DNA from: Hyphomonadaceae bacterium
Lineage (GTDB): Bacteria; Pseudomonadota; Alphaproteobacteria; Caulobacterales; Hyphomonadaceae
Assembly: GCA_947478925.1 (NCBI GenBank)
Contig: CANJXY010000010.1
Location: 1 to 39,541, forward strand
Length of the DNA stretch: 39,541 bases
Direction: 5' to 3'
Position 1 is the stretch's first letter. The number at the start of each line of letters is the position of its first letter. The position numbers and the translations under genes are program-made. This document shows positions 33 through 4,410 of this stretch, in pieces. The notes beneath the pieces were generated by a model. That model had not been told where the DNA came from. It did no database searches and saw only the letters and a program-made list of their open reading frames with translations.

Positions 33-797
33 TCAGCCTTGCCTGAAATCCCCGTCTGATTGCAGTTGTTCAGCCGCAGACGCTTGCCAGGCCCGCACCT
101 GCCAGAAGGCGGGCTCGAGCTTTGCCGCTTCTTCATAGCTGGCGGCATTGTCGATTGCGGCGGTAACCCTTTCGTTCAAGGCCACAAGGCCCAGATATGA
201 CGCCATGTTCCGATCAATGACATAGGTGGCCGATGCGCGGATGAGACCGAATGTCAGGTTCTCCGCGGAAGGCTTTGCCTTCCCGCGGCCGGTCAGGTTT
301 TCGCCGAGCGCGGCGCTGACTTTCGCGGCCCGCTAATTGTCGTTGTCGACATCGTAGGAGGTCAGTGCATTGACGCCGAGAAAGGTCACAAGGTCGACAC
401 CGGGCAGCGTCGCACTCGCTTCAAGCGCCGTCTGAAGTCCGTTGCGGGTATCGCCATTTGGCGTCAGCTTGAATTGCGAAAGCAGCAGCAGCAACTCGGC
501 GCCGATGTGGAACGCATCTTCCCCGTTGCCCGCCAGCGCCGCCGTCGCATACCTGCGCGCGGCTGCGTAATCCGTCGCCATGAAAGCGGCGAAGCCAAAC
601 TCATTTGCGATGATCGGCAGATCCGTCCGGCCCTTGGCCAGCGTGGCCCAGGTCGAGGCTGCCTCTGCAGCTGCCTTCCTGTAGTCCTTCGCCTGCATCG
701 CGTCGTTGAAGGATTTGATGTCGGCGAACGCAGGCAACGCCAGACAGATCGCGGCGGCGGACACGGCGACACGCTGCAGAAAACGCGCATACTGCAT
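33..797 (-). pseudogene. exported protein of unknown function, interrupted by an in-frame TAG
   Basis: The minus strand starts at ATG 795-797, behind a GGGGAG ribosome binding site, and encodes a clear signal peptide (MQYARFLQRV then a hydrophobic stretch ending LALPAFA). The mature part is Ala-rich and helical, like a TPR or solenoid protein, but I recognise no family. After 154 residues the frame meets TAG at 333-335. The same frame then stays open for 99 more codons to TGA at 33-35, with the same Ala-rich composition (e.g. ASATYVIDRNMASYLG, KLEPAFWQVRAWQASA). The intact product would be about 254 residues. This looks like one nonsense substitution rather than a natural end. A sequencing error, amber suppression, or a working shortened protein are alternatives. 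A GTG at 813-815 is a weaker start. Bases 1-32 show nothing. Confidence 0.65.
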
Positions 798-932: not shown

Positions 933-2591
933 ATGCGCAGGATGCTTTTTGCTATCAGTGGATTGCTAGCGCTTTCGGCCTGCACGACCACAGCGTCGAC
1001 CATCCCCGTCAGCGGCGCTGCCGTTGAGGTGCATCTGCTGGCGATCAACGATTTTCACGGCAATCTCGATCCGCCTTCGGGAGGTGTGTTTGTCGTCGAT
1101 CGCGCCAATCCGCTGACGCGTGGCTCGGTTCCCGGAGGCGGAGCGCCGCGCCTGGCTACGGCGGTGAGGGAACTCAGCAAGAAGTCCAATACGGTCATGG
1201 TAGCAGCCGGCGACATGATCGGCGCCTCGCCGCTGCTGTCGAGCCTGTTCCATGACGAGCCGACTATCGAGGCTCTGTCGCAGATGGGGCTCGCGATCAC
1301 GACGGTCGGCAATCACGAGTTCGATGAAGGCTGGCAGGAACTGCGCCGCATGCAGAATGGCGGCTGCCATCCGGTCGATGGCTGCAAGGGCCCGAAACCA
1401 TTCGCAGGTGCAAAGTTCGAGTATCTCGCTGCCTCGACCTATCTCGACGACGGCACAACCCTGTTTCCGCCTTACGCGATCCGCGAGTTCGGCGGCGTGA
1501 AGGTCGGCTTCATCGGGCTGACGCTCGAAGGCACGCCTGACGTGATCACGCCGGCGGCGCGCGCGGGCATCACGTTCAAGGACGAAGCAGAAACGGTGAA
1601 CGCGCTGGTGCCGCAGCTACAGGCCAAGGGCGTCCAGGCCATCGTCGTGCTGCTGCATGAGGGCGGCTACACAAACAACGCGCAGGATGATTGCCGCGGC
1701 CTCACCGGCACGATCACCGAGATCGTTCCGAAGTTCGACAAGGCGGTGGATGTGGTCGTCAGCGGCCACACCAACGGGATCTATATCTGCAACGTCGATG
1801 GCCGGTTGGTGACCAGCGCGGGCGCCTATGGCACGCGCCTGACCGATATCACGCTGATGATCGACCCTACGAGCGGCGATGTAATCGGCGCGAAGGGCCG
1901 CGATGTTCCGATCGCAGAAACCCAATTTGCCGAAGACAAGGCGCAGATCGACCTCATCAGCGCCTATCGCAAGCAGGCTGAGCCGCTGATGAAGCGCCCG
2001 GTCGGGGCGATCACCGAGGCGATCACGCGTCGCGGCGGACAGACTGGTGAGAGCGCGATGGGTGACGTCATCGCGGACTCGATGTTGGAAGCCGCGCGAC
2101 GGCAGACCGACAAGGTGGATATCGGCTTCATGAACCCGGGCGGCATCCGCTCGGACCTGCCCTTCCACGATGGCGGCAAGACGACGTTCAACGACATCTT
2201 CACGGTGCAGCCGTTCGGCAACGATCTTGTCGTGATCTCTCTGACAGGAGCCGATATCGAGACGGTGCTGAAGCAGCAATACCAGACGAGCGGGAACAAT
2301 ATCCTGCAGGTATCGGACGGTTTCACCTTCACGTGGAAGCAAGCGGCGGGGCAGCCGATCGAGATCGTGCCCGGCTCAGTGAAGCTCCACGGACAACCGA
2401 TCGTGGCAACACAGACCTATCGGGTGGTGACGAACAATTTTCTCGCGGGCGGCGGCGACAGCTTCTTCGCCTTCAAGTCGGGTACTGGGCGCCTGAACAT
2501 CGGCAGCGACATCGAGGCGCTTGAAGCCTATTTCAAGAACCACTCGCCGATCACGCCCACGATCAAGGGCCGGATCAACAAGGTCGACTAG
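933..2591 (+). CDS. 5'-nucleotidase / 2',3'-cyclic phosphodiesterase family lipoprotein
   Basis: This 552-residue protein belongs to the UshA/CpdB-type metallophosphatases, which hydrolyse extracytoplasmic nucleotides to nucleosides and phosphate. ATG 933 follows a GGAGGAA site; the frame is open far upstream, but that part has no protein-like features. The N-terminus is a lipoprotein signal with lipobox LSAC (Cys17), so it is probably anchored in an envelope membrane. The metallophosphatase domain shows NDFHGN (39-44), AAGDMIGASP, GNHEFDEG (about 125-132) and VSGHTN (about 277). The C-terminal substrate domain has NPGGIRSDL (about 400) and an FGNDLVV segment. The length is normal for the family. 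Its TAG stop and the stop of the convergent next gene share the palindrome CTAG at 2588-2591. Exact substrate preference cannot be told from sequence. Confidence 0.9.
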   Translation: MRRMLFAISGLLALSACTTTASTIPVSGAAVEVHLLAINDFHGNLDPPSGGVFVVDRANPLTRGSVPGGGAPRLATAVRELSKKSNTVMVAAGDMIGASPLLSSLFHDEPTIEALSQMGLAITTVGNHEFDEGWQELRRMQNGGCHPVDGCKGPKPFAGAKFEYLAASTYLDDGTTLFPPYAIREFGGVKVGFIGLTLEGTPDVITPAARAGITFKDEAETVNALVPQLQAKGVQAIVVLLHEGGYTNNAQDDCRGLTGTITEIVPKFDKAVDVVVSGHTNGIYICNVDGRLVTSAGAYGTRLTDITLMIDPTSGDVIGAKGRDVPIAETQFAEDKAQIDLISAYRKQAEPLMKRPVGAITEAITRRGGQTGESAMGDVIADSMLEAARRQTDKVDIGFMNPGGIRSDLPFHDGGKTTFNDIFTVQPFGNDLVVISLTGADIETVLKQQYQTSGNNILQVSDGFTFTWKQAAGQPIEIVPGSVKLHGQPIVATQTYRVVTNNFLAGGGDSFFAFKSGTGRLNIGSDIEALEAYFKNHSPITPTIKGRINKVD

Positions 2592-3286
2592 GCAGGCATC
2601 AACAACGCCGCAGCCTTCGCCTCTTCTCTGCGGACCGCCAACTGCTTCGCACGCATAGGCTCGTAGCTATCGCGTGTCGCCTGCGACGCCAGGTCGGGAT
2701 GGCCCGACTCGAAGGGTGGCGCAGGCGCGTATTCGAGCCCGAGCTGGACCATCTTCGCAAAATCCTCGCCGGCGATTTCCGCGAGCACGGTGAACGCGAA
2801 GTCGATGCCCGCCGTCACGCCGCCGCCGGTGATGATGTTGCCATCGCGCGCAACGCGCGCGGGATCGTGCGTGGCGCCGAACAGCGGCAGCAAGTCCGCA
2901 TAGGCCCAGTGACACGCGGCGCGCTTGTCCCTGAGCAGACCGGCGGCGCCGAGGATCAGCGAGCCTGTACAGACAGACGTGATATAGCGCGCGCCGCCGG
3001 CGAGACGACGGATCTCCGATGTGAAGCCAATGTCTTGCGCGATCTTCGTCGCCCCTACACCTCCGGGAACACAGATGAGGTCACAGCTTCTTATGTCTGC
3101 GATCCGCGTCGTGCCGCCGAAGGTGAGGCCGTCAGCCTCCACTGAACCGCCGTCCGGGCTTGCAACAATCGTCTCCGATCGCGGCAGCCGGCTCAGCACC
3201 TGGTGAGGGCCGGTGAAGTCGAGATGCGTCATGCCGGGCCAGATTGCGAACACTGTTCTGAATGTCGTTCCGGCTTCTGTGTGCAT
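2588..3286 (-). CDS. DJ-1/PfpI family protein, isonitrile hydratase-like
   Basis: This 232-residue protein is a DJ-1/PfpI (class I glutamine amidotransferase-like) enzyme. The nucleophile elbow is VCTGSLILGAAGLL, with Cys106 as probable catalytic residue. The early segment WPGMTHLDFTGPHQVL and the CHWAYADLLPLFG segment resemble the isonitrile hydratase branch (InhA of Pseudomonas), which turns isonitriles into N-formamides; that assignment is inference by likeness. I chose ATG 3284-3286 because CAGGAAATC precedes it. An ATG 15 bases further upstream lacks a ribosome binding site. It is divergent from a GlxA-type regulator carrying the same fold, so the regulator probably controls it. The C-terminal tail is Ala/Lys-rich. 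Confidence 0.8.
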   Translation of the reverse strand: MHTEAGTTFRTVFAIWPGMTHLDFTGPHQVLSRLPRSETIVASPDGGSVEADGLTFGGTTRIADIRSCDLICVPGGVGATKIAQDIGFTSEIRRLAGGARYITSVCTGSLILGAAGLLRDKRAACHWAYADLLPLFGATHDPARVARDGNIITGGGVTAGIDFAFTVLAEIAGEDFAKMVQLGLEYAPAPPFESGHPDLASQATRDSYEPMRAKQLAVRREEAKAAALLMPA

Positions 3287-3408
3287 GATTTCCTGGGGCA
3301 TCGGGGGAGGAACCTCGCTCTACGAAGCCAATGTGCCTCAATCAGCGACTGGCTGAAATGACAATGTTACCTCTTTTTCGGCCAATGCCGATCTGCTAAG
3401 ATCGCTCC
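3287..3408. promoter_or_regulatory. divergent control region between DJ-1 enzyme and GlxA-type regulator
   Basis: The 122-base gap must hold both promoters. It contains two small perfect inverted repeats, TCAGC-GACTG-GCTGA (3342-3356) and TCGGC-CAAT-GCCGA (3378-3391). The heptamer GCCAATG occurs twice (3327-3333 and 3381-3387). These are candidate sites for the AraC-type regulator, but repeats this short also occur by chance. Confidence 0.3.
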
Positions 3409-4410
3409 ATGGCAAAGACACCCTCTCCCCGTTCGCTGAAGCCGCGCACCATCGGCGTGCTGATCTTTGACGACTTCCAATTGCTCGATGCGGCTGGCCC
3501 GATCGGCGCGTTCGAAATGCCGATGCGCGGGATGAACCCACCGCCCTACAAGCTGACGGTCATCGCGCCGAACGCCGGACCCGTGAAGTCCTCCTCCGGC
3601 GTGGTGTGGATGGCGGAAGCGATGCCGCGCCTGCCGAAATACGACACGGTGATCATCGCCGGTGGATGGGGCTCACGCACGGCGATGCTCGATCCGAACG
3701 TGCAGGCCTTCGTGAAGGCGGCGATGAAGACAGCGCGGCGCGTCTGTTCGGTCTGTTCGGGGGCGTATATTCTGGCGCAGGCCGGCGTGCTGGACGGCAA
3801 ACGGTGCACGACGCACTGGGGCCGGACACCAGATTTCCAGAAGCGCTATCCGGACGCAAAGCTGGAGCCGGACTGCATCTACACACGCGACGGCAAACTG
3901 TGGACGTCAGCTGGCATCACGGCGGGGATCGACCTGGCGCTGGCCCTGATCGCGGACGATCTCGGGGAGGAAGTGTCACGCCGGTCAGCACAGGAGCTGG
4001 TGGTTTACCATCGGCGGCCGGGCGGGCAGTCGCAATTCTCGGCCCTGCTGGACATCGAGCGGATCGAGGGCCGGTTCACGCCCCTGCTCGGCTGGATGCG
4101 CGAGCGGCTGGATGAGGATCTGTCGGTCGAGACCTTGGCGGGCCAATCCAACATGAGCCCCCGGAACTTTGCCCGCGCCTTCGCGGCCGAGACCGGCACA
4201 ACCCCGGCCAAGGCGGTCGAGCGGCTGCGGCTGGAGAGCGCCCGGGAAAGGGTGGAACATACCAGCGCGCCAATCGACGTGGTGGCGCACGATGTCGGTT
4301 TCGGGGATCCGGAACGGATGCGGCGGGCGTTCGTGCGCGCGTTCGGCCAGCCGCCGCAGCAGCTGCGGAGACTTGCGCGGGCAGCGCTTGCTCAGTCGGC
4401 CGACGTGTAA
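3409..4410 (+). CDS. GlxA-family transcriptional regulator (DJ-1/PfpI domain plus AraC-type HTH)
   Basis: This 333-residue protein has two parts. Residues 13-200 are a DJ-1/PfpI-like sensor domain (GVLIFDDFQLLDAAGP, AGGWGSR, VCSGAYILAQAG with a conserved Cys at 116). Residues about 225-325 are an AraC/XylS DNA-binding domain: LSVETLAGQSNMSPRNFARA is the first helix-turn-helix and IDVVAHDVGFGDPERMRRAF the second. Family members activate catabolic genes for amines, carnitine, betaine or isonitriles. Its divergent neighbour is an enzyme of the same fold, so local control of that gene is the simplest reading. The effector is unknown. Its 3' end overlaps the convergent small gene by 19 bases. Confidence 0.88.
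   Translation: MAKTPSPRSLKPRTIGVLIFDDFQLLDAAGPIGAFEMPMRGMNPPPYKLTVIAPNAGPVKSSSGVVWMAEAMPRLPKYDTVIIAGGWGSRTAMLDPNVQAFVKAAMKTARRVCSVCSGAYILAQAGVLDGKRCTTHWGRTPDFQKRYPDAKLEPDCIYTRDGKLWTSAGITAGIDLALALIADDLGEEVSRRSAQELVVYHRRPGGQSQFSALLDIERIEGRFTPLLGWMRERLDEDLSVETLAGQSNMSPRNFARAFAAETGTTPAKAVERLRLESARERVEHTSAPIDVVAHDVGFGDPERMRRAFVRAFGQPPQQLRRLARAALAQSADV

Follow-up and report, generated by a model that had tools for sequence, protein, structure and literature searches.

The window analyzed here, a stretch of 39541 bp, represents the entire contig C10 of the source genome G000, whose assembly comprises 3.94 Mb in 344 contigs. At the beginning of this contig lies a gene on the minus strand that starts with an ATG at 797-795 and runs through 154 sense codons (797-336) before a TAG at 335-333 interrupts its frame as codon 155. 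Past the TAG, 99 further sense codons follow in the same frame up to a TGA at 38-36, which is directly succeeded by a second TGA at 35-33; with 32 bases left between the tandem TGA and the contig end, the gene is contig-terminal. Plus-strand frame 1 of 33-797 was discarded as a coding frame since its translation gave no such protein. The frame and the TAG within it are directly visible in the DNA, and the locus comprises the following features:

336 to 797, minus strand: first part of the gene, encoding a signal-peptide-like N-terminus and a helical-repeat region (154 codons; phmmer E 1.3e-43 against the G001 orthologue)
723 to 797, minus strand: signal-peptide-like N-terminus of about 25 residues (translation read by eye, without a predictor)
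333 to 335, minus strand: in-frame TAG (a sense codon in 4 of 4 intact syntenic orthologues)
36 to 332, minus strand: extension of this frame past the TAG, with 99 sense codons and the TGA at 38-36 (translation; homology of the second part)
33 to 38, minus strand: tandem TGA TGA, closing the frame ahead of any TonB_C domain (the orthologues run about 130 residues further)
933 to 2591, plus strand: 5'-nucleotidase-type gene, the divergent neighbor and synteny anchor, without an internal stop (relatives' loci)
2588 to 3301, minus strand: DJ-1/PfpI gene, a shared neighbor (relatives' loci)
3409 to 4410, plus strand: gene for a DJ-1/PfpI and AraC-type regulator, a shared neighbor (relatives' loci)

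That an in-frame TAG splits a gene for an exported protein at these positions had been recognized in a preceding sequence-only reading, whose coordinates proved correct and which was silent on the minus-strand location. It had also considered an open frame of 99 codons after the TAG to be unlikely by chance. As far as length is concerned, this argument carries little weight, since a random 99-codon stretch of this base composition is stop-free with a probability of 0.048 (about 5%); it is the homology of the second part that places the continuation after the TAG beyond chance. The GC content at codon positions 1/2/3 is similar on both sides of the TAG, at 0.62/0.47/0.75 before it and 0.65/0.51/0.70 after it. 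For the homology searches, we used the read-through product, with an X at the stop, as the query against 61 genomes, 12 of which (own genome included) contained a match. The best non-self match was found in G001 (E 1.8e-65, 50% identity, query 2-252), followed by that in G005 (E 1.4e-54, 46%). Relatives span both halves of the joined product without a break, the check that the sequence-only reading had put forward: none of the 22 non-self matches contains an internal stop, with several local matches ending short of the TAG column.

The second part (99 residues) was also searched alone against 709 ORFs of at least 60 residues from the relatives' loci. It matched G001 (E 1.3e-19), G005 (2e-12), G010 (6e-8) and the broken copy of G006 (2e-6), and more weakly G004 (8e-5) and G011 (2e-4); seven rows matched at E<=10, two of them being cuts of one place, and the reversed second part matched none of the same 709 ORFs. 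Each half, searched singly, thus matches the same relatives. In an alignment of 20 homologous frames, hand-chosen as full-length from 36 rows, the TAG column is occupied by a residue in 19 frames and by a short gap in one, and all 20 extend past the end of the window frame. The intact syntenic orthologues of G001, G004, G005 and G011 share the same residue at this column. Unbroken frames with a sense codon at the position of the TAG in four sister genomes indicate that the two ORFs are a single gene and that the TAG is a lesion within it.

The intact orthologues comprise 379 (G001), 381 (G005), 385 (G004) and 390 (G011) codons, each in one frame; the 254-codon frame, which the sequence-only reading had taken for the whole gene, is therefore only part of it. 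Judged from these orthologues, the end of the window frame at codon 254 is probably not the natural end of the gene. The intact protein would be an exported one, with a putative signal peptide (judged by eye from the window translation), a predicted helical-repeat body and a C-terminal TonB_C domain. PF03544 (TonB_C) was detected in G001 (E 1.7e-9, 38.5 bits) and in G005 (E 4.5e-9, 37.1 bits), both above the Pfam cut-off of 24.6, and TIGR01352 in G001 (E 4.2e-11, 43 versus an NCBIfam cut-off of 27.1); 11 of the 12 PDB chains that matched the intact protein at E<=1 are TonB proteins. A Pfam search with the read-through product of the window (X at the stop) returned no family, PF03544 included.

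We predicted the structure of the intact G001-type protein from a three-row alignment. The model has a mean pLDDT of 60, and its helical N-terminal part is well scored only to about residue 150. Most of the matches listed in a Foldseek comparison with the PDB (50 rows) are TPR proteins, with none at E<=0.001 among them; the helical part may accordingly be TPR-like, a lead of low confidence. Alignment to the G001 model places the TAG where a predicted helix begins, midway through the solenoid. From the TonB_C domain and the low-confidence TPR-like model one might guess at a periplasmic scaffold or an energy-coupling role, and a literature search combining Hyphomonadaceae, TonB and tetratricopeptide found no paper.

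A search of the rest of G000 for the TonB_C tail brought up no convincing candidate. The region C12:215-565 appears to be a small TonB_C protein in its own right; C40 (E 0.02) was not convincing, and neither were C170 (E 0.05) and C51 (E 0.8), both of which contain an internal stop. With a cytochrome-P460-like query, matches of 68-80% identity were obtained in G001, G004, G008, G012 and G013, and none in G000. Contig C80 of G000 starts (1-453) inside an M16 peptidase, at query residue 306; in G005, the corresponding point is followed by the rest of the gene, the P460-like gene and the M16 peptidase up to its residue 305, a stretch that was not found in G000. With G005 as the reference, a segment of about 2.5 kb between C10 and C80 is thus probably absent from this assembly, and C80 is probably the next contig across this gap, in which the tail of the gene may simply fall. 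A repeat as the cause of the contig break was rejected, since the first 120 bases are not repeated elsewhere in G000, where other matches reach 16-20 bases at best. The tandem TGA is suggestive, but not proof, of a second lesion, and at the contig end it could also be an end artefact; over the last bases of the frame both other frames are open too, the stretch being too short to judge a frameshift.

The history of the locus was traced through the genus with the 5'-nucleotidase gene, which was found in 13 of 15 genomes, G007 and G009 being the two without a match. The flank in question is readable in 12 genomes, leaving out G003, whose contig starts in the 5'-nucleotidase gene. Among these 12 flanks the gene is intact in four, broken in two and absent in six. 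All intact copies (G001, G004, G005 and G011) lie next to the same 5'-nucleotidase gene in divergent orientation. Downstream of the gene, G001, G005 and G004 carry a cytochrome-P460-like gene (its Pfam match is below the cut-off) and an M16 peptidase, neither of which was found in G011 within about 1.4 kb past the gene. The broken copies are those of G000, with its single TAG, and of G006, where an internal segment near residues 25-77 is deleted and the frame changes further on (L029:2-802, contig C24). The G006 copy adjoins an intact 5'-nucleotidase gene, is 79-91% identical to the intact G001 copy in three of four aligned pieces, and shows a later stage in the decay of the same gene. In G008, G013 and G012 the gene is absent and the 5'-nucleotidase gene lies directly beside the P460-like gene; in G002, G014 and G010 no family match was found in the flank. 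This repeated absence or decay, directly seen at the locus, indicates that the gene is dispensable in the genus, and in a dispensable gene a nonsense change can persist.

Members of the family also occur away from this locus. In G010 a homologue is carried by a different contig, and G008 and G013 encode more distant members at other places in their genomes; a second family member was not found in G000. Three paralogues of this exported family stand side by side in G005 (C124:7023-9826), and likewise in G010 (C102:895-3982). In G011 (C3:93256-94910), the 5'-nucleotidase matches as two overlapping pieces, suggesting a frameshift in the gene or in the assembly.

For two pairs of sequences, we computed the divergence at each codon position (1/2/3) over one shared set of 94 columns that follow the TAG. 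It amounts to 0.457/0.372/0.691 between the window copy and G001 (40 of 94 residues identical) and to 0.330/0.415/0.649 between G001 and G005 (36 of 94 identical); the pattern of divergence past the TAG is coding-like. Before the TAG, the window copy keeps 37 of the 46 columns that are identical in the four intact copies, and leaving out the intact copies one at a time gave 37 kept of 40, 41, 41 and 44; after the TAG it keeps 7 of 9, with 7 kept of 9, 9, 11 and 13 in the leave-one-out comparison. Constraint on the window copy is not clearly relaxed, and there is no sign of long decay of the kind seen in G006. Conservation near the level of the intact copies therefore points to either a recent change or an error; the conserved-column test gives the same picture for a young pseudogene as for an error. 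Nine neighbor genes of the window that are shared with relatives have no internal stop in 27 in-frame comparisons, and the gene under study has one TAG in all three of its in-frame comparisons; this count leaves out rows that are out of frame, antisense or running outside the gene.

Taken with a probability of roughly 0.7, our interpretation is that a dispensable gene for an exported TonB_C protein has recently become a nonsense pseudogene at this locus. There is a disabling lesion in the frame (the TAG at 335-333), and lesion-free orthologues are present at the same locus. One nonsense mutation would have struck codon 155 of an accessory gene whose product is exported; translation would halt midway through the helical region and leave the C-terminal half unmade. 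The change would be recent, because the sequence past the TAG is still protein-like and still resembles the intact orthologues, and dispensability of the gene would allow it to persist. We infer that the TAG is present in the living genome and did not arise in the assembly, and the truncated product would presumably be non-functional.

The main rival to a pseudogene is an error of sequencing, assembly or strain mixing, whereby the gene would be intact in the cell and the TAG and the loss of frame at the contig end would be artefacts of a draft, possibly metagenome-derived, assembly. Several observations lend themselves to this explanation, which we nevertheless consider unlikely: the gene sits at a contig end in an assembly of 344 contigs, with the TAG 333 bases from that end; the unmatched P460-like gene and the start of C80 inside the peptidase point to the gap of about 2.5 kb just past the contig start; two close relatives are MAGs; and coding-like constraint is not clearly diminished past the TAG. 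On the other hand, these 333 bases place the TAG inside the contig, and the nine shared neighbor genes are free of internal stops. Moreover, the same locus has been wrecked independently in G006 and the gene is absent from 6 of the 12 genomes, so that loss is to be expected here.

Amber readthrough, in which ribosomes would pass the TAG at some rate to yield a longer and perhaps regulatory protein, appears highly improbable to us. The post-TAG frame is open for 99 codons and protein-like, and Belinky et al. (2021; PMC7918605) argue that in-frame stops are widespread in bacterial genes and that many are not pseudogenes; both points speak for readthrough. However, the stop is not shared by any relative in the comparison: all four intact syntenic orthologues lack it, and the 22 other matches, several of which end before its column, are free of internal stops. 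A read-through product would still meet the TGA TGA ahead of TonB_C. No CUA anticodon was found when all 40 Rfam tRNA matches in G000 were inspected, in a set that is incomplete in having neither an Asn nor an Ile tRNA; anticodons were taken from ARAGORN, and one tRNA that it missed was read by eye as Arg-ACG. TAG is also an ordinary terminator in this window: of 33 of its genes, selected by eye among the listed ORFs, 16 end with TGA, 10 with TAG and 7 with TAA, which likewise speaks against a genome-wide reassignment of TAG. The 5'-nucleotidase gene itself ends with a TAG at the same residue where the G001 and G005 proteins end. Slightly less credible still is a tolerated, leaky or switch-like TAG at one conserved codon, by which the population would keep the gene mostly off, with expression through low natural readthrough without a dedicated suppressor or through frequent reversion. 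The sequence-only reading had left a fresh mutation, readthrough and an error side by side; mutation and error both stand, with mutation favored, and readthrough has gained no positive support. The least probable explanation, a pair of distinct genes or a protein that is short by nature and ends at the TAG or at codon 254, agrees with the fact that the frame does end twice on the contig, but is largely contradicted by the relatives, for all 20 chosen full-length frames pass the TAG column into the C-terminal region, and the second part, aligned to the G001 model, starts within a repeat and has no signal peptide by eye.

For annotation, the two ORFs should be treated as one gene, a probable pseudogene or possibly an assembly error, and not as two proteins or a case of recoding. 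Within one genus, the locus provides a small series in which the same gene is intact, freshly stopped, wrecked or absent.

Compared with proteins that carry a TonB_C domain (PF03544/TIGR01352), the orthologues of G001 and G005 are alike, whereas the window copy is without the domain on this contig. With the genes treated by Belinky et al. (2021; PMC7918605) the locus shares an in-frame TAG in a coding gene. Their large-scale argument for function is built on stops that two or more species have in common, whereas the stop reported here is seen in one genome only; their work fits with a short-lived nonsense variant at this locus. The closest likeness is to bacterial single-nonsense pseudogenes: nothing distinctive sets the window copy apart from them beyond the position of the 3' third of the gene off the contig, and it shares with them one in-frame stop, a coding-like gene, intact sister orthologues and a locus that has been repeatedly lost or decayed.
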